DNA of 64,000 nt from contig JAQSWM010000003.1 of assembly GCA_029266635.1 (NCBI GenBank), positions 62,001 through 126,000 of the forward strand. The letters run 5' to 3'. How positions within the stretch are numbered: the first letter of the stretch is position 1; each line of letters begins with the position of its first letter. The position numbers and the translations under genes were made by a program. Below are positions 44,360 to 55,894 of the stretch, piece after piece. This DNA comes from Sphingobacteriaceae bacterium (GTDB lineage: Bacteria > Bacteroidota > Bacteroidia > Sphingobacteriales > Sphingobacteriaceae). The notes beneath the pieces are model-generated. The model searched no databases. It was not told the origin of the DNA and saw nothing but the letters and a program-made list of their open reading frames with translations.

Positions 44360-44407
44360 TAGGTATATGCTTTACGGGCGGCAAGCGCCCCCTAAAGCAT
44401 ATACCTA
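44360..44407. repeat. 48-base perfect hairpin touching the PiT stop codon
   Basis: TAGGTATATGCTTTA (44360-44374) is the exact inverse of TAAAGCATATACCTA (44393-44407); inside, GGGCG pairs with CGCCC. The right arm contains the phosphate transporter's stop codon (44405-44407), and TAAAGCAT recurs at 44411-44418. There is no T-run on either side. It may be a terminator of unusual form or an inserted palindromic repeat. Confidence 0.7.
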
Positions 44408-45415
44408 TCTTAAAGCATTAATCAGAAGATAAATTCCGGCTGCAAGAACAGCAGAAACGGGTATTGTGAGTATCCACGCCCAAACGAGGTTGATGGTTAC
44501 GCCCCAACGCACAGCCGAAATGCGCTTAGTCATCCCCACGCCAATAATCGCTCCGGTAATGGTGTGTGTGGTAGAAACCGGTATCCCAAAATGCTCGGTT
44601 ATACCCAGCGTAACGGCTCCCGCACTCTCCGCTCCAACGCCTTCTAATGCAGTTACTTTTGTAATCCTGGAACCCATCGTTTTCACAATCCTCCAGCCAC
44701 CGGTTAAGGTTCCTCCCGAAATAGCAATATAGCAAACCAGCGGGATCCATTCAGGCATCGTGCCTTCTGCCGGAACTACCTTTGCGGAAATCATCGCCAC
44801 ATAGATAATTCCCATCACTTTCTGGGCATCGTTTCCGCCGTGCGTAAAGCTCAGTGCAGCCGACGACAAAAGCTGCAATTTTCTGAACCATTTCTCAGCA
44901 GTAGAGGGCCTTGCCCAGCGGGAAAGATTGATAATTATCAGGGTTATTATCACCGAAATAACCGATCCGATAACCGGCGCCAATACAATAAAGGCTACAA
45001 TCTTTATCACGTACCCTGAATTGATCGCGTCCAGCGGATGTGCGCCCATGAGCAGGGCATTTGTAATTCCCGCACCGGCAAATCCGCCTATAAGCGTGTG
45101 CGACGAACTCGAAGGAATCCCATAATACCAGGTCATCAAGTTCCAGCAGATGGCCGCTATAAGCCCCGCTAAGATTACGTGGAGCGTGATAAAATTCTCC
45201 GTTACGGTCTTTGCAACCGTGTTTGCAACCTTATGGTCTGTAAAATAGAAGTAAGCAGCAAAATTGAATATCGCCGCCCACATTACTGCCTGAAACGGCG
45301 AGAGTACTTTGGTTGAAACAATGGTAGCAATAGAATTTGCCGCATCATGGAAACCGTTTATATAATCGAACGCAACTGCGAGAACAATCACAATTACTAA
45401 CAGGGAAGTAACCAT
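44405..45415 (-). CDS. PiT family low-affinity inorganic phosphate transporter
   Basis: A 336-residue inner-membrane symporter importing metal-phosphate or phosphate with a proton. Both inverted-repeat signatures are present: FDYINGFHDAANSIATIVSTKVL near the start (GxhDAANxIA) and FTHGGNDAQKVMG in the middle, then the second AGAVTLGITEHFGIPVSTTHTI. About ten hydrophobic segments. It follows the DUF47 gene by 18 bases in the same operon, the standard PiT-PhoU-like arrangement. A PHO-box-like repeat upstream of DUF47 suggests induction under phosphate shortage. Confidence 0.95.
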   Translation of the reverse strand: MVTSLLVIVIVLAVAFDYINGFHDAANSIATIVSTKVLSPFQAVMWAAIFNFAAYFYFTDHKVANTVAKTVTENFITLHVILAGLIAAICWNLMTWYYGIPSSSSHTLIGGFAGAGITNALLMGAHPLDAINSGYVIKIVAFIVLAPVIGSVISVIITLIIINLSRWARPSTAEKWFRKLQLLSSAALSFTHGGNDAQKVMGIIYVAMISAKVVPAEGTMPEWIPLVCYIAISGGTLTGGWRIVKTMGSRITKVTALEGVGAESAGAVTLGITEHFGIPVSTTHTITGAIIGVGMTKRISAVRWGVTINLVWAWILTIPVSAVLAAGIYLLINALR

Positions 45416-45433
45416 TCCTTTGTATAGTTTAGT

Positions 45434-46081
45434 TTATGCGTTCTTAACCAGGATCGTTTCCAGCACGTTGGCAACATCTTCGCACTTGTCTGTAGCCGTT
45501 TCGAGAGCTGCAAGTATTTCCTTGTACTTGATGATCTCTTTTGCATCGGTTTCAAACTCAAAAAGATGGGCAACAGCCCGGTCGAAGATATAATCTGCCT
45601 GATTTTCCATGCTGTTGATGCGCACACAAGAATCAGTGATTATGCGGATGTTTTTTAGGTTTTTAAGCTCTCGGACCGCCTTATCAACATCAATACAGCC
45701 TTGCACAATGAGTTCTGTAATTTTGATAATAGGATCACTCATCTCCGTTACTTTGTATAAAGACATCCGGTTGGCAGAGCCATGGATGTAATCGGCAACA
45801 TCATCAATAGCCGAAGCTAATTGGTGGATGTCTTCACGATCAAAAGGAGTGATAAAGTTTTTGCCGAGCTCAAGATAAAGCTGGTGAGTGATGTCGTCAC
45901 CTTTGTGCTCAAGGTCTTCAATGTGTTTGAAAAGCTCGATTCGGCGACTGTTGTCTTTTGTATTAACTGCCTCTTGTAATGCTTCAGCTAACTTGATGAG
46001 GTTATTGCTTCCTTGTTCAAACAGCGGAAAGAACACGCGGTCTTTCGGGACGAAGTATTGGAAAATATTATTTAGTGCCAT
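45434..46081 (-). CDS. DUF47 / PhoU-like phosphate transport accessory protein
   Basis: A 215-residue all-helical protein that pairs with PiT transporters. It has the family segments FFPLFEQGSNNLIKLAEALQ, EDLEHKGDDITHQLYLEL (metal-binding acidic/His residues) and FDREDIHQLASAIDDVADYI. It probably tunes PiT activity or phosphate signalling. It is the first gene of the DUF47-PiT operon, whose promoter region holds a PHO-box-like repeat. Confidence 0.94.
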   Translation of the reverse strand: MALNNIFQYFVPKDRVFFPLFEQGSNNLIKLAEALQEAVNTKDNSRRIELFKHIEDLEHKGDDITHQLYLELGKNFITPFDREDIHQLASAIDDVADYIHGSANRMSLYKVTEMSDPIIKITELIVQGCIDVDKAVRELKNLKNIRIITDSCVRINSMENQADYIFDRAVAHLFEFETDAKEIIKYKEILAALETATDKCEDVANVLETILVKNA

Positions 46082-46098
46082 GTTTTTGTACTTAGGCG

Positions 46099-46132
46099 CA
46101 AAGCTACGTCCGCAATGTTAAGTTACTGTTAA
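46099..46132 (-). promoter_or_regulatory. Promoter with PHO-box-like direct repeat for the DUF47-PiT operon
   Basis: Read leftward: TTAACA (46127-46132), five bases, TTAACA (46116-46121), nine bases, then TAGCTTTG (46099-46106), a perfect -7 element. The 11-base period and TTAACA-N5-TTAACA words are those known for PhoP/PhoB boxes (best described in Bacillus). There is no TTTG -33 element, as expected for an activator-dependent promoter. Confidence 0.6.
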
Positions 46133-46143
46133 GCTTTTTTGTT

Positions 46144-47193
46144 TTATTCTATCGGGATAAAGTTGTTCTTGACCTGCTCAAGCGTGAAGCCAAAAGTTGA
46201 CCCCAACCCTTCTGTGCTCCGAACGCTGATTGTTTGCTGATGCGCTTCTACAATATGCTTCACGATTGCAAGCCCGAGGCCAGAGCCACCGATCTGCCGT
46301 GAGCGGCTTTTGTCTGTGCGATAGAACCGCTCGAACAGCCTCGGCAAATACTTTTCTTCTATACCAGAACCGTCGTCGGTAACTTCCACTAAAATCTGAT
46401 CGTGCAGTTCAAAAGTCTTGATTGCTGTGATCCCGTTCTCTTTGCCGTATTTGAAAGAATTATCTATCAGGTTCACCAGCACCTGCCTGATTTTCTCGCG
46501 GTCGGCGTTCACAATCAGCTCAGAATCATACTTATCTTTGAAAACCAGGTGTATCTTGTATTCGCTGGCTTTCAGTTCAAGCGAATCTACAACTTCGTGG
46601 ATGAGTGCTGTAAGGTCGAATTTTTCATAGTTGATTGGTACTTCACCACTCTCCAGTTTCGAAATAGCATCAAGGTCTTTGATCAGGAAGCTAAGGCGGT
46701 CCAGATTCTTTGATGCCTTGCCCAAAAATTGTTTTCCGAGTTCTATATCTGAAAAGCCATCTTCCTGCACCGCTTCAATATATCCCTGTATGGCGAAAAG
46801 CGGCGTCTTAAATTCGTGAGAAATGTTTGAAAGGAACTCTCTTCTAAATTCCTCCTGCTTTTTTAGTGTATCAATTTCAGATTTCTTGTCGCGGGCCCAC
46901 TCTTTTACCTCAATTTCCACATCGTACAAAGGATCACTGCTTATCACATATTCACCAAGCGCATCTTTGAGGTCTTTGCCGAGCTTGAGGTTATGGATAA
47001 GCTTATAAATCAGCTTGATCTTACTGTAAACGTATTTTTCAATCAGTAAATAAAAAATAATAAAACTGATAATAAGGGTAAAGCCAAACGTAATCAGAAG
47101 GTAATACCAGTCATGCTGAAAGTAAAAATTGATAATCCCCAACGACAGAGCTACGGCCAGGGAGTTTATAAAAACCAGTACCGAAAGTTTCAT
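46144..47193 (-). CDS. PhoR-like membrane sensor histidine kinase
   Basis: A 349-residue kinase with two N-terminal membrane helices (LSVLVFINSLAVALSLGIINFYF and LITFGFTLIISFIIFYLLI) and almost no periplasmic loop. A juxtamembrane coil follows, then HisKA (SNISHEFKTPLFAIQGYIEAV) and HATPase: N-box LVNLIDNSFKYG, then VTDDGSGIEEKYL and GGSGLGLAIVKHIVEAHQ. Lack of a periplasmic sensor domain and the PiT-DUF47 operon beside it suggest phosphate-state sensing through a transporter contact. The usual adjacent PhoB-type regulator is missing. It begins 20 bases after the FAD oxidoreductase stop of the polyketide operon, so it may be transcribed with it. Confidence 0.9.
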   Translation of the reverse strand: MKLSVLVFINSLAVALSLGIINFYFQHDWYYLLITFGFTLIISFIIFYLLIEKYVYSKIKLIYKLIHNLKLGKDLKDALGEYVISSDPLYDVEIEVKEWARDKKSEIDTLKKQEEFRREFLSNISHEFKTPLFAIQGYIEAVQEDGFSDIELGKQFLGKASKNLDRLSFLIKDLDAISKLESGEVPINYEKFDLTALIHEVVDSLELKASEYKIHLVFKDKYDSELIVNADREKIRQVLVNLIDNSFKYGKENGITAIKTFELHDQILVEVTDDGSGIEEKYLPRLFERFYRTDKSRSRQIGGSGLGLAIVKHIVEAHQQTISVRSTEGLGSTFGFTLEQVKNNFIPIE

Positions 47194-47213: not shown

Positions 47214-48341
47214 TTACAAATTAAAAGGTTTGCCGTGCGTATTCCTGATCAGCAAGCCGCCAAGACCGGGCACTGTTTTGAGGGTAGAAATAGCAAGCTC
47301 TGAAACAAAGGCATTGCCAAACAGGCGCTGAATGGCTCTGCCGGTTTTAAGGCGGCTGGCGAATTGGGCTTTCCACATTCTTTCCCACTCCTGCTCAATA
47401 GCCGCTCTCTGCCCCGCCTCTTTGAAAATCGGCTGCCGCGAAATAATGTCGCTGAGCAGTTTTGCCGAGTGCATAGCCATTGCCATTCCGTTACCGCACA
47501 AAGGCGTGATCATCCCGGCAGCGTCGCCGCAAAAAAGAATGTGGTTTTCGACAAGCGATTTCTGTTCAAATGAGATTTCATTTATCACTTCTGGCCTATC
47601 AAACAGGAACTCAGATTCTGCAAAATGACGCTTGAGCGATGGGTTTCTGTGCAGGACGTTTTGCTCAATAGCTTGGATGCTTCCATGTTTTTTTAACAAC
47701 CGATTTTCAGCGAGATAGCAGAGGCAGAATTTGTCGCCTTCTATTTTCTCGATCCCGCAATAGCCGCCCTCAAAATTGTCGAGCTGGATTGTGTCGGCAG
47801 GGAAATCTGTGCGGATGTGATACTTCACACCAATGTATGGACTGCGTTTGTAGAAAAAGTCGCGTGACAGCTTTTGGTCGAGATTGGAGCGTTTGCCATG
47901 GCTGGCGATGACTAAACCTGCCTGGAGTTTAATGTTATTTGAAAGTGTAACCTCGAACTGATTGTCAGCAAATGCAACATCGTTCGCCTTCTCTCCAAGG
48001 GAAAACTCAACACCTTCCGAGAGAGCTTTCCGGTACAGCAAAGTATCAAATTCAAATCGGCTTAAGCCAAAGCCGCCGAGCTCAAGCTTGTGATGAAAGC
48101 CTTTTCCTTTCGGCGATGTTACCGTCAGTTTGGAAATGTGCGATGGGCCACACTCTTCTACATCAATGTTAAGTGATTGCAGAAACGACATCACTTCGTT
48201 CGACACATACTCCCCGCACACCCTGTGAAAAGGATATTGCTTTTTCTCAACCACCGTGACTTCGAAACCGGCTTTTGCCAGCAATATGGAGGATGTGAGC
48301 CCGGCAATCCCGCCGCCGATGATGATAATTCTGGCTTTCAT
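47214..48341 (-). CDS. FAD-dependent oxidoreductase (geranylgeranyl-reductase/monooxygenase family) of the type III PKS operon
   Basis: A 375-residue flavoprotein. It has the N-terminal dinucleotide-binding motif IIIGGGIAGLTSSILLAKAGF, the conserved VCGEYVSNEV segment, and the second FAD motif ILFCGDAAGMITPLCGNGMAMAM. This family covers aromatic hydroxylases and prenyl-chain reductases. As it is locked to a type III PKS (four-base ATGA overlap with the methyltransferase gene) it may hydroxylate the phenolic product to a quinol, like SrsC of Streptomyces, or reduce a prenyl chain. The sequence alone does not decide between the two. Confidence 0.87.
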   Translation of the reverse strand: MKARIIIIGGGIAGLTSSILLAKAGFEVTVVEKKQYPFHRVCGEYVSNEVMSFLQSLNIDVEECGPSHISKLTVTSPKGKGFHHKLELGGFGLSRFEFDTLLYRKALSEGVEFSLGEKANDVAFADNQFEVTLSNNIKLQAGLVIASHGKRSNLDQKLSRDFFYKRSPYIGVKYHIRTDFPADTIQLDNFEGGYCGIEKIEGDKFCLCYLAENRLLKKHGSIQAIEQNVLHRNPSLKRHFAESEFLFDRPEVINEISFEQKSLVENHILFCGDAAGMITPLCGNGMAMAMHSAKLLSDIISRQPIFKEAGQRAAIEQEWERMWKAQFASRLKTGRAIQRLFGNAFVSELAISTLKTVPGLGGLLIRNTHGKPFNL

Positions 48342-49033
48342 TTATAAATGATCACCTGCCATCGGAATGCCCACATCCATCGGATACTATAATTTTTTAA
48401 TCCGGCTTTCAACAACATTGCTTCCAGTTCTTCCCGCCTGAAGCTCCTGAGCACAGAAACCTTCGAATCATGTTTCACCATCTCAGAACGGGAAAAGACC
48501 TTTGTCAAAACGCCGATGGAATGGTAAGCGAACCAGTGCCGGTGGAGGTCGTTTATCACTACTGCCTTTGTGCCGCATTCAGCCATTTTAGCGACCAAGT
48601 TTATCCAGGCTTCATCCTGAAAATGGTGGCTGAAGAGGCTGGAAATCACAACATCAAATTGCCCCGGCTTCAACTCACCGCTCAGAACATCGGCGTGGAT
48701 AAAGCTTATTTCGGGGTAGAGCGACGCCTTTGTGCGGGCGTATTCCACCGCAGAAGCGGTGGCATCTACGCCCACTAAGCTGATACGCAGATTTCTCTTT
48801 CTCGCCCACTTTGCAATCACCCGCAGCGAGTCACCGCCGCCGCAGCCCCAGTCGGAAATGGTCATCCCATCTTTAATCCCAATCCGTTTAAAAGCATCAA
48901 AGAACACAGTATATCCTCCCAAAAGCTTGTTCACCACCTCCAGCTCATCCATAATCGGATCAATAACTTCAGCTCCGAGGCTGAAATCATCCATCATTTC
49001 GTCTTCGGTACTTCTTTTGGAAAAATTAGGCAT
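48338..49033 (-). CDS. SAM-dependent methyltransferase of the type III PKS operon
   Basis: A 231-residue class I methyltransferase. SAM motif I is ISDWGCGGGDSLRV, motif II LVGVDATASAVEYAR, then GQFDVVISSLFSHHF. No signal peptide. It sits between the PKS (one base after its stop) and the FAD gene (four-base overlap), so it is surely part of the same pathway, likely an O- or C-methyl transfer onto the polyketide-derived phenol. Exact position of methylation cannot be told. Confidence 0.9.
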   Translation of the reverse strand: MPNFSKRSTEDEMMDDFSLGAEVIDPIMDELEVVNKLLGGYTVFFDAFKRIGIKDGMTISDWGCGGGDSLRVIAKWARKRNLRISLVGVDATASAVEYARTKASLYPEISFIHADVLSGELKPGQFDVVISSLFSHHFQDEAWINLVAKMAECGTKAVVINDLHRHWFAYHSIGVLTKVFSRSEMVKHDSKVSVLRSFRREELEAMLLKAGLKNYSIRWMWAFRWQVIIYK

Positions 49034-49034
49034 A

Positions 49035-50132
49035 TCAGGCGGCTTGTAGTATCATGCTCTCAAAAGTCAGGCCCGGGCCAAAGGCAAAGCTCAGGAGGTT
49101 TTCACCCGATTTCACTTCTTTTAAGAATCGCTTTAGCACAAACAGAACTGTAACGGATGACATATTCCCAAACTCCCTCAGCACATCGAAAGAGTGTTTC
49201 ATACAAAGGGTTGAATTAAAGGCTTCATCGCACACCTCCAGGATCCGCCTGCCTCCGGGATGTACGGCAAGATGATGAATATCCCGAATGTTCATCCTGG
49301 CTTTTGCCACCAGCTTTTCAGTTACAGCATCAATTTTGCTGCTGATGTTCTTAGCAATTTTAGACGAAAGCTTCATTTCAAAACCCGTATCGCCAATGCG
49401 CCAGCCCATATTATCCTTGGCTTCTGTGACGAGTTCATTGTAAAAAGAGTGCATCCGAAACCCATTCTCAGATGACCGGCTACTCTCCGGCTCAACCAGC
49501 ACAGCCGCAGCGCCATCGCTAAAAAGCGAATTGGAAACCCAGTTTTCAAGCGTGCTTGCTTTCTGAAAATGCAGCGTGCACAGCTCCACATCCACAATCA
49601 AAACCTTGGCACCGGCATCCGCACGACAAATATAATCCGCCATTTTTAAGGCATTGAAAGCGCCGTAACAGCCCATGAAATTGATACAAGTACGTTCAAT
49701 AGATTTGTTCAGGCCAAGAGATAGGACTAAGTCAATATCCAGTCCGGGAGCATACATGCCGGTGCAGCTAACGGTGATGAGGTGGGTGATGTGTTGTGGT
49801 TTTAGGTCGGGAATTTGCCGGAACAAATCTTCGCTAGCTGTATGTGCAACCTTTTTCGCGTATTCCTCATAAACCAGACTGCGTTGCCGTGTAGTTGGGA
49901 AAGGTGCAAGCCCCGCTTCATTTCCAAAAAAAGTGTAATCGCCGGAAGCGCTTCCAAAATCTTCAAGTACAGAATACCGATTGTTGATCCCGGAAAGTTC
50001 GTACAGGGTTTTCAGTCGTGCCGCATCATTATCGTTCAACCGGTGCGCTTTCGTCATGAACTGCAATATCTGGTTTTGTTCAAAGCAATGCTGCGGGTTT
50101 GCAGTGCCGATAGCCGAAATAATGCTGTTCAT
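49035..50132 (-). CDS. Type III polyketide synthase
   Basis: A 365-residue chalcone/stilbene-synthase-fold enzyme that extends an acyl-CoA starter with malonyl-CoA to a pyrone, resorcinol or related phenol. The catalytic triad is intact: Cys155 in CINFMGCYGAFNALK, His291 in HHLAVHPGGRRILEV, and Asn323 in REFGNMSSVTVLFVL. Length is normal (350-400). It begins the leftward operon PKS-methyltransferase-FAD oxidoreductase and is divergent from the UbiA gene across 52 bases. Starter and number of extensions cannot be read directly; long-chain acyl starters are typical in bacteria with this gene set. Confidence 0.95.
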   Translation of the reverse strand: MNSIISAIGTANPQHCFEQNQILQFMTKAHRLNDNDAARLKTLYELSGINNRYSVLEDFGSASGDYTFFGNEAGLAPFPTTRQRSLVYEEYAKKVAHTASEDLFRQIPDLKPQHITHLITVSCTGMYAPGLDIDLVLSLGLNKSIERTCINFMGCYGAFNALKMADYICRADAGAKVLIVDVELCTLHFQKASTLENWVSNSLFSDGAAAVLVEPESSRSSENGFRMHSFYNELVTEAKDNMGWRIGDTGFEMKLSSKIAKNISSKIDAVTEKLVAKARMNIRDIHHLAVHPGGRRILEVCDEAFNSTLCMKHSFDVLREFGNMSSVTVLFVLKRFLKEVKSGENLLSFAFGPGLTFESMILQAA

Positions 50133-50184
50133 CAGTTATTTTTTCTAAGTTTATGAAACGGTTGCGCCCCTTAAAGGTTTTGTA

Positions 50185-51063
50185 ATGAATTTTATGCCTT
50201 CTAAATCTTCCTGGCTGCACCTTCGCTTTGCATTTTCACTCTTCCTTCTGCCGGTATTTATTTTCGCTGTAAGCCAGGCTCCACATCCAGATACGGTAAA
50301 ATGCTGGATTGCGTTCTTTTCATGGCACTTTTTTATCTACCCGGCAAGCAATGGCTACAATAGCTATTTTGACAAAGACGAAGGAAGTATTGCTTTGCTC
50401 AAATCTCCGCCGAAAGTAGATAAAAGCCTCTACTGGCTCTCGCTAACCTTAGATCTCGTTGGCATTTTGCTGGCTTTCTTTGTGAGCCTCGAGTTTGTGC
50501 TGGCGGTGATTGTTTATGGTTTGCTTTCAAAGCTGTACAGCCACCCGGCTACGCGGCTGAAGAAATACCCGGTGGTAAGCTTCCTCGTGGTTTTCTTTTT
50601 CCAGGGTGCTTTTGTGTATTACACCAGCTATTCGGCGGTTTCGCAGGTTAGCCTTGGATTGTTGCTGAGCGATAGCCCATTCCTTATCGCCGGACTGATC
50701 TGCTCCTGTTTGATTGGGGCATCGTACCCGCTCACACAGGTTTATCAGCATGAGGAGGACCGCCAAAGAGGCGATGAAACTTTAAGTATGATGCTGGGGA
50801 TAAGAGGATCGTTTTGGTTTGCCGGAACTCTTTTTATTGCTGCCATACTGCTGCAATATCATTACTGGAGCGAGGCAAGTAGGCTATCTATGTTTTACCT
50901 CTTCCTTACCTTTGGTGCGCCAGTGTTTGGGATGTTTGTTTATTGGTTCGCGAAGGTGTGGCAGGATGAGCGAAATGCCAATTTTAAGCTGATGAGCAGG
51001 ATGACTTTTCTCAGCGGAACTATGATGCTGCTGTATTTTGTTGTGGTTTGGATTTCGAAGTAA
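50185..51063 (+). CDS. UbiA-family prenyltransferase beside the type III PKS operon
   Basis: A 292-residue membrane prenyltransferase with about eight helices. The first Asp-rich motif is NGYNSYFDKDEGSIA and the second HEEDRQRGDETLSMMLGIRG, which together bind the Mg-diphosphate of the prenyl donor. UbiA enzymes attach prenyl chains to aromatic acceptors; the divergent type III PKS operon 52 bases away would provide a suitable acceptor. It could instead make a carotenoid- or quinone-related product. No other quinone genes are in the window. Confidence 0.9.
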   Translation: MNFMPSKSSWLHLRFAFSLFLLPVFIFAVSQAPHPDTVKCWIAFFSWHFFIYPASNGYNSYFDKDEGSIALLKSPPKVDKSLYWLSLTLDLVGILLAFFVSLEFVLAVIVYGLLSKLYSHPATRLKKYPVVSFLVVFFFQGAFVYYTSYSAVSQVSLGLLLSDSPFLIAGLICSCLIGASYPLTQVYQHEEDRQRGDETLSMMLGIRGSFWFAGTLFIAAILLQYHYWSEASRLSMFYLFLTFGAPVFGMFVYWFAKVWQDERNANFKLMSRMTFLSGTMMLLYFVVVWISK

Positions 51064-54055: not shown

Positions 54056-54796
54056 ATGAAGTATATTTCCGTTGTTGCGATTTTTCTGGTGATGAGTGCC
54101 ACTGATGTTCATGCGCAACTTAAACTTGGCAAAGTAGGCGATGCCATCAAACAAGCGGCAAGCGGAACAAGTGCAAGCCCATCGACTACCGAGATTGCGG
54201 CAGGCTTGAAGGAGGCGCTTGAAAAAGGAGTTTCCGCCAGTGCCGACAGGCTTTCTGTTGCGGATGGTTTTATGGGCAATGCTGCCGTAAAGCTGCTCTT
54301 CCCACCCGAAGCACAAAAGATTGAAAAGGCAGTTCGCGGGCTTGGGATGAATAAGTTGTGCGATGATTTCGTGCTCAGCCTGAACCGTGCCGCCGAGGAT
54401 GCAGCCAAAGAAGCAAAGCCGATTTTTGTGTCGGCGTTAAAGCAGATGAGCATTGCCGATGCATCGAATATTTTACTTGGTGGCAAACAGGATGCAGCCA
54501 CACAATACTTTAAGGCAACAACTACAGACCAGTTAAAAGGTGCATTTGCGCCGGTTATTAAAAACAGCCTCGACAAAGTTGGCGCAACCAAATACTGGAC
54601 AGACATAGCCGCTGCTTACAACAAGGTTCCTCTAACTTCTAAGGTGAATACTGATCTTACTGCTTACGCCACCCAAAAGTCTGTAGACGGGCTGTTTTTT
54701 GAGATAGCCCGGGAAGAACTTAAAATCCGCAGCAACTCCTCACTACGCGGCTCCCCACTGCTGCAAAAGGTTTTTGGCTACGCTGATAAGAAATAA
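54056..54796 (+). CDS. DUF4197 exported protein, first copy
   Basis: A 246-residue periplasmic protein with signal peptide MKYISVVAIFLVMSATDVHA. The rest is the DUF4197 domain: EIAAGLKEALEKGVSASADR, KLLFPPEAQKIEKAVRGLGM, LNRAAEDAAKEAKPIFVSAL, KYWTDIAAAYNKVPL and the closing SPLLQKVFGYADKK. It is mostly helical. The function of DUF4197 is unknown. A second copy (55151-55894) lies 354 bases downstream, with a reversed DUF5808 gene between. This copy lacks the lipobox seen in the second. Confidence 0.9.
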   Translation: MKYISVVAIFLVMSATDVHAQLKLGKVGDAIKQAASGTSASPSTTEIAAGLKEALEKGVSASADRLSVADGFMGNAAVKLLFPPEAQKIEKAVRGLGMNKLCDDFVLSLNRAAEDAAKEAKPIFVSALKQMSIADASNILLGGKQDAATQYFKATTTDQLKGAFAPVIKNSLDKVGATKYWTDIAAAYNKVPLTSKVNTDLTAYATQKSVDGLFFEIAREELKIRSNSSLRGSPLLQKVFGYADKK

Positions 54797-55150: not shown

Positions 55151-55894
55151 ATGAAAAAATTAATAATAGCAAGTTTTGCCACTTGTACTATTCTGCTGGC
55201 AAGCTGCGATACATTGAACCAGGCTGCTCAGGTGTTAAATCAATCCGGCATCGGCATCCCCGGCGTGAGCCCTACATCTTCAGAGGTTTCTTTGGGCTTA
55301 AAACAGGCATTGGAATTCGGTACAACTATGAGCGCTGAGCGGCTTTCTGCCCGCGACGGCTTTCTCGGCAACCTCGCCATCAAACTGCTTTTCCCACCCG
55401 AAGCTCAAAAGGTTGAACGGACACTTCGCGGGCTTGGCTTTAACCAGCTTTGCGATAATGTGGTCATGAGCCTGAACCGGGCTGCTGAAGATGCCGCAGC
55501 TAAGGCAAAGCCGATATTCGTTTCTGCGATTAAGCAGATGACCATCAATGATGCCATGAACATTTTGCTTGGCAATCAGAGCGATGCTGCTACTCAATAT
55601 TTCAAACGTGTAACAACATCGCAGTTGATGTCTGCTTTCAGTCCGGTTATACAAAATAGCCTCGGCAAAGTCGGAGCAACAAAATATTGGGGCGATGTCA
55701 CCAACACCTACAACAAACTCCCGCTCGTTACCAAGATCAATCCTGATCTGACTGGATATGTAACCGAAAGGGCTATAGAAGGCTTATTCTTCGAAATTGC
55801 CAAGGAAGAGCTGCGGATCAGGAGCAACGTTTCTGCCCGCACTACGCCATTGCTACAGAAGGTATTTGGATACGCGGATCAGAACAGAGGATAA
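55151..55894 (+). CDS. DUF4197 lipoprotein, second copy
   Basis: A 247-residue lipoprotein: MKKLIIASFATCTILLASCDT with lipobox LLASC. Its DUF4197 domain matches the first copy along its full length (EVSLGLKQALEFGTTMSAER, KLLFPPEAQKVERTLRGLGF, LNRAAEDAAAKAKPIFVSAI, TPLLQKVFGYADQNRG). The main difference is lipid anchoring versus the soluble first copy, so they may work at two places of the envelope. Ends in a very strong bidirectional terminator. Confidence 0.92.
   Translation: MKKLIIASFATCTILLASCDTLNQAAQVLNQSGIGIPGVSPTSSEVSLGLKQALEFGTTMSAERLSARDGFLGNLAIKLLFPPEAQKVERTLRGLGFNQLCDNVVMSLNRAAEDAAAKAKPIFVSAIKQMTINDAMNILLGNQSDAATQYFKRVTTSQLMSAFSPVIQNSLGKVGATKYWGDVTNTYNKLPLVTKINPDLTGYVTERAIEGLFFEIAKEELRIRSNVSARTTPLLQKVFGYADQNRG

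Follow-up and report, generated by a model that had tools for sequence, protein, structure and literature searches.

Described systems and the Sphingobacteriaceae locus

Membrane prenylation, methylation from S-adenosylmethionine (SAM) and hydroxylation by flavin adenine dinucleotide (FAD) enzymes are combined in ubiquinone synthesis, by the trio UbiA, UbiG and UbiH, and in tocopherol-type pathways, where the aromatic ring is derived from chorismate or tyrosine. In the plant cannabinoid pathway, a phenol made by a type III polyketide synthase (PKS) is prenylated by a membrane UbiA enzyme with a short geranyl donor. Here we analyze a locus in a 64,000-nucleotide stretch of DNA (hereafter the window) from the 3.6 Mb genome of a Sphingobacteriaceae bacterium, in which a type III PKS gene is accompanied by genes for a class I SAM-dependent methyltransferase (MT), an FAD-dependent oxidoreductase that is a probable aromatic hydroxylase, and a UbiA-superfamily membrane prenyltransferase. 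The locus would share its chemistry trio with the ubiquinone and tocopherol-type pathways, whose ring is not drawn from a PKS, and none of its UbiA, MT or FAD proteins reached a cut-off of those families in an NCBIfam scan. With the cannabinoid pathway it shares the PKS and UbiA logic, but that pathway is built of plant enzymes and has no equivalent MT-FAD operon.

Among bacterial systems, Streptomyces srsABC likewise unites a type III PKS, a methyltransferase and a flavoprotein hydroxylase in one operon, an analogy on which the original prediction, made from the window alone, had relied. The analogy holds for the logic of adjacent PKS, methyltransferase and flavoprotein genes and fails at the level of the protein family: SrsB is a relative of isoprenylcysteine carboxyl methyltransferase (ICMT) (PMC6669644), whereas the window MT is a Methyltransf_25 protein with no ICMT match in the Pfam scan, and the window set is therefore not a member of srsABC. 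Moreover, srsABC contains neither a UbiA gene nor the YceI gene present in many relatives' loci. The pks10 operon of Mycobacterium smegmatis, homologous to srs, yields a type III PKS resorcinol that undergoes O-methylation before its conversion by oxidation into a membrane quinone; its long alkyl tail comes from the starter, and no prenyltransferase is mentioned (PMC5916927, citing Anand 2015). In logic this operon, like srs, matches the window set, from which both differ in methyltransferase family and in lacking UbiA. At the losA locus of Micromonospora endolithica, responsible for loseolamycins, genes for UbiA and a methyltransferase lie close to that for a type III PKS; in that case only losA was activated, unprenylated alkylresorcinols were obtained, and an acyl-CoA dehydrogenase stands in place of the FAD enzyme (PMC7587189). 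A prenyltransferase also occurs in one hierridin-like cluster of cyanobacteria, a case described as unique (PMC8086630). A search of the open literature, which did not extend to most subscription journals and cluster databases, turned up no characterised product for the four genes together.

In the window, the PKS gene (49035..50132, minus strand, 365 aa), the MT gene (48338..49033, minus strand, 231 aa) and the FAD gene (47214..48341, minus strand, 375 aa) form one predicted operon, in that order, with a gap of 1 base followed by a 4-base overlap. The UbiA gene (50185..51063, plus strand, 292 aa) runs the opposite way, and the 52 bp between it and the PKS start (50133..50184) presumably house both promoters. 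These spacings had been stated in the original prediction and match the open reading frame (ORF) coordinates exactly, while its four gene names agree with Pfam domain searches: Chal_sti_synt_N and Chal_sti_synt_C for the PKS, Methyltransf_25 for the MT, FAD_binding_3 and others for the FAD enzyme, and PF01040 at 73 bits against a cut-off of 34 for UbiA. The closest named relatives of the window PKS are also Sphingobacteriaceae.

We consider it fairly probable that the product of this gene set is a membrane phenol or quinone of polyketide origin bearing a prenyl group, i.e. a meroterpenoid lipid. The type III PKS would condense a starter with malonyl-CoA and close an aromatic ring, probably of the resorcinol type; the MT would move a methyl group from SAM onto an oxygen or carbon of the ring; the FAD enzyme would hydroxylate the ring to a hydroquinone, oxidisable to a quinone; and UbiA would draw on a prenyl diphosphate to add a polyprenyl group within the membrane. 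Transport of the finished lipid through the periplasm would in many relatives probably fall to a YceI lipocalin. The pathway as such is real and widely co-inherited, and amounts to a novel form of phenolic-lipid operon built around a type III PKS; that UbiA prenylates the PKS product is, judged from sequence, probable.

Co-inheritance of the four genes

Eighty named loci were collected from Pedobacter, Mucilaginibacter, Daejeonella, Arcticibacter, Hufsiella, Desertivirga, Roseivirga, Hymenobacter, Rufibacter and others. The gene set recurs in many genera at about 40–64% identity, and the four-gene arrangement is far beyond chance. The MT gene shares the PKS strand in 76 of the 80 loci and the FAD gene in 71, UbiA falls within the locus in 70 (69 from ORF clustering, together with L040), and 46 retain the divergent PKS/UbiA layout with no YceI insertion. 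Other families have UbiA on the same strand as the PKS, with 12–20 bp between the matches in G149, G237 and G260; at L128 and L129 the UbiA and PKS ORFs overlap on one strand.

The strongest evidence that PKS and UbiA work together is that their genome sets coincide even where the two genes are unlinked. Cluster-type PKS (E <= 1.2e-69) was detected in 34 of 120 relatives and cluster-type UbiA (E <= 3.5e-87) in the identical 34, with clear score gaps beneath both; for the window's own family the pair was present in 27 of 72 genomes of this sample. Members of three genera (g2, g20 and g21) possess both genes or neither. Across the phylum, 19 of 247 genomes carried the PKS, by a cut chosen afterwards, and the same 19 carried UbiA; among same-class genomes the PKS gap was clear, from 421 bits to 214 or less. 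The two genes are unlinked in eight genomes, far apart on one contig in G256 and G276 and on different contigs in G186, G268, G300, G019, G054 and G111. FAD and MT follow the PKS/UbiA set across genomes, G300 being without MT.

Separation of UbiA from the PKS in relatives had been named beforehand as a finding that would count against the predicted pathway. It does occur, in 9 of the 79 informative loci: a whole-genome search placed UbiA elsewhere in four genomes (Hymenobacter sp. BT18, Rufibacter roseus, Arcticibacter eurypsychrophilus and A. svalbardensis), and in five it is absent. On the other hand, the cluster UbiA groups apart from the heme and menaquinone-type enzymes of its own genome. 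The original interpretation is supported in part: the assignment of all four genes to one pathway finds good support in synteny and genome-wide co-occurrence, and prenylation of the PKS product is a step that we infer.

Alternative products and enzyme assignments

A number of findings weigh against the reading favoured here. The phylum-wide PKS cut was set after the UbiA set had been seen, and across classes the scores pass from 421 to 401 bits with no clear gap. Whole-genome search found no cluster-type UbiA in five Mucilaginibacter (L075, L091, L093, L094 and L096), in which PKS, FAD, MT and YceI are kept. The acyl-tunnel sites of the PKS differ from those of PKS18 and are ambiguous, the product class not being readable from the PKS sequence. 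The best NCBIfam match of the FAD enzyme is the geranylgeranyl reductase superfamily (TIGR02032), at 106.9 bits and below its cut-off of 158.8. The acidic motifs of UbiA depart from the canonical NDxxDxxxD and DxxxDxxxD, and the canonical pair is not present. The window's own cluster, furthermore, has no YceI gene; the genome has five, and the nearest copy is unlinked.

The five Mucilaginibacter genomes bear on the alternative, unlikely in our estimation, that the operon takes a fatty acyl starter and stops at an alkylresorcinol or alkylquinone that has been methylated and oxidised, in the manner of srs and pks10, with UbiA decorating a minor share or serving another acceptor. One Mucilaginibacter group has lost UbiA and kept the rest of the set; the set can hence do without UbiA, and prenylation may be an optional step. 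An acyl starter is likewise suggested by the FabA-like, ketosynthase (KS) and acyl carrier protein (ACP) genes of UbiA-free relatives described below, whereas the exact coincidence of the PKS and UbiA sets in both samples, unlinked genes included, speaks for the prenylated product. Upstream of the YceI-PKS operon in two of these genomes (L075 and L094) lie a gene that is carotenoid-desaturase-like by its first residues and glycosyl-/acyltransferase-like genes.

The PKS itself furnishes arguments on both sides. It is a type III enzyme of the chalcone/stilbene synthase superfamily, with Pfam matches above cut-offs, Steely1 and PKS18 as relatives in the PDB, and the Cys-His-Asn triad that had been predicted to be intact: Cys155, His291 and Asn323 align with C175, H313 and N346 of PKS18 and are invariant among the relatives compared. 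At the tunnel, residue mapping places Phe189, His188 and Trp244 at PKS18 A209, N208 and L266, respectively. These substitutions may narrow the tunnel and restrict long starters; those to Phe189 and His188 count in this way against an alkylresorcinol-only product. In ArsC, Gly284 (Trp281 in ArsB) and Met293 form a pair that steers resorcinol versus pyrone formation (PMC6274091). The window PKS has an invariant Trp244 with Met253 at +9, the spacing of Gly284 to Met293, which is a weak hint at a resorcinol product and would also suit an alkylresorcinol; the equivalence of Trp244 to ArsB Trp281 rests on this spacing and not on an ArsB/ArsC alignment, because ArsB and ArsC are not among the solved structures listed as PKS matches. 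PKS11, annotated as a pyrone synthase, likewise carries a Trp in the Trp244 stretch. A DpgA identity was rejected, the NCBIfam equivalog NF042429 scoring 148 bits against a cut-off of 425. Deep forks of the PKS tree are weakly supported, and no conclusion is drawn from them.

A UbiA-free variant in other Bacteroidota (L122-L125) places the same FAD and MT families beside a type III PKS, with dedicated acyl genes replacing UbiA. FAD, MT and PKS genes are joined there by a FabA-like dehydratase and a KS, in several cases also by an ACP, a phosphopantetheinyl transferase (PPTase) or a short-chain dehydrogenase/reductase (SDR), and cluster-type UbiA is absent. Their FAD enzymes score about 380–490 bits with the cluster FAD profile and nest among UbiA-associated FADs in the tree, while their PKS belongs to another clade (about 180–213 bits), with PKS11 as the nearest solved structure. 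This suggests that ring modification is the task of MT and FAD in every form of the cluster, with the hydrophobic tail coming from either UbiA or the acyl genes; the L122-L125 clusters are probably a separate, uncharacterised phenolic-lipid pathway. A third kind, PKS-MT with a UbiH-like FAD enzyme, occurs in another class (L116-L118).

Of the two presumed ring-modifying enzymes, the MT has PRK06202 as its nearest NCBIfam model (148 bits, under the cut-off of 243), and its closest solved relatives are only distant. For the FAD enzyme, the AlphaFold model has a mean predicted local distance difference test (pLDDT) score of 89; the top Foldseek matches are 3-hydroxybenzoate 6-hydroxylase (3HB6H) structures, and VIA-align 2 gives Z 35–37 to phenol/pyrrole halogenases and 3HB6H. 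Against 4bk3 (Z 35.8, root-mean-square deviation (rmsd) 2.9, 365 residues), the match spans the whole chain and points to the fold group of 3HB6H, UbiH and p-hydroxybenzoate hydroxylase (PHBH), a fold common to halogenases and geranylgeranyl reductases that does not by itself fix the function. The TIGR02032 score and the geranylgeranyl-reductase-like 3oz2 among the fold matches (Z 32.6) would both accommodate a prenyl-chain reductase that saturates the UbiA-added tail rather than a ring hydroxylase. We regard this assignment as quite unlikely, as the nearest folds, all of one superfamily, are aromatic hydroxylases and halogenases, and orthologous FADs nested within the UbiA-associated ones persist in UbiA-free clusters, so that the FAD enzyme most likely acts on the ring. 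Ring hydroxylation, accordingly, rests more on the sister gene arrangement than on a fold whose superfamily all the nearest structures share. A halogenase role was considered and rejected: although the nearest relatives include solved flavin halogenases, the stretch GGYCGIEKIEGDKF lacks the flavin halogenase signature WxWxIP.

The UbiA protein belongs to its superfamily by the PF01040 match and by structure (Z 22.8 to 4tq4, 271 residues, rmsd 3.4). Its model (pLDDT 94.6) finds its nearest folds in archaeal UbiA/digeranylgeranylglyceryl phosphate (DGGGP) synthase, with Z 22–23 over 260–271 residues. The original prediction had recognised both Asp motifs, which is correct as to position but not as to sequence: motif 1 reads N59-S-x-x-D63-x-D65, the usual last Asp not being a fixed residue, and motif 2 reads T184-Q185-x-Y187-Q188-x-x-E191-D192-xxx-G196-D197. 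In 81–82 sequences there is no variation at Asn59, Ser60, Asp63, Asp65, Gln185, Tyr187, Gln188 and Asp192 and very little at Glu191 and Asp197. Near-invariant replacement of the canonical motifs could mean that the UbiA-fold protein, rather than acting as a simple prenyltransferase, performs another reaction on the PKS product, e.g. cyclisation or transfer from a different phosphorylated donor. Such a role appears very unlikely given that several acidic residues persist at the motif sites and that the fold matches UbiA prenyltransferases, including archaeal structures with dimethylallyl diphosphate (DMAPP) or geranyl diphosphate (GPP) bound.

Menaquinone, heme and carotenoid roles for the cluster UbiA were rejected, as no such model reached its cut-off; in the NCBIfam scan this includes the equivalogs for heme O synthase and menaquinone (MqnP, MenA). 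Its own genome, moreover, provides for heme O and menaquinone-type prenylation with separate paralogs, a heme O synthase (CtaB, above cut-off) and an MqnP-like protein above the UbiA_other cut-off. UbiA relatives outside the cluster group sit on very long branches in the tree. Another ORF of the genome (L004, G000:C1:279496-280086) joins a flavodoxin/NAD(P)H-oxidoreductase-like domain to a UbiA-like domain and has a stop codon inside the UbiA match.

YceI lipocalins, gene neighbourhood and biological meaning

YceI proteins accommodate octaprenylphosphate, octaprenylphenol or ubiquinone-8 within their barrel, and purification of one of them from periplasmic extract yielded the protein with ubiquinone-8 bound (PMC9113575). 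In 26 of the 80 loci, the PKS is immediately preceded by a YceI gene (PF04264) in the same orientation. In a different, distant family (L137) it is found downstream of UbiA with one gene between, FAD, MT and PKS diverging; a YceI copy in the window's own genome (G000:C10:173624-174118) is as near to the cluster type as that of L137. The association fits, and does not prove, a prenylated product. Going further, one could tentatively picture a hitherto unseen class of isoprenoid quinone, with a ring supplied by a type III PKS rather than by chorismate, produced in the membranes of many Bacteroidota, ferried by YceI and with UbiA and a fatty-acid-synthase (FAS)-like set interchangeable for the tail on the same ring; we hold this to be rather doubtful.

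On the operon strand of the window, positions 44405-47193 carry a PhoR/PnpS-like histidine kinase, a DUF47/PhoU-like gene and a Pit-like phosphate transporter (all minus). The kinase gene begins 20 bases past the FAD gene, and a kinase follows the operon in 54 of the 80 loci, because of which the PKS operon may share transcription with the phosphate genes. With such neighbours, the pathway perhaps supplies a phosphorus-free membrane lipid. Elsewhere in the window, two similar adjacent ORFs of 246 and 247 aa (54056-54796 and 55151-55894, plus strand) have the look of a tandem duplication.

Overall, the gene set has a wide distribution among common genera of soil and fresh water, Pedobacter and Mucilaginibacter among them. 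Should it indeed make a prenyl quinone or phenol of polyketide origin, these bacteria would possess a respiratory or antioxidant lipid beyond the chorismate-derived quinones, and the UbiA and acyl-building versions of the cluster would constitute a natural test of the role of each tail.

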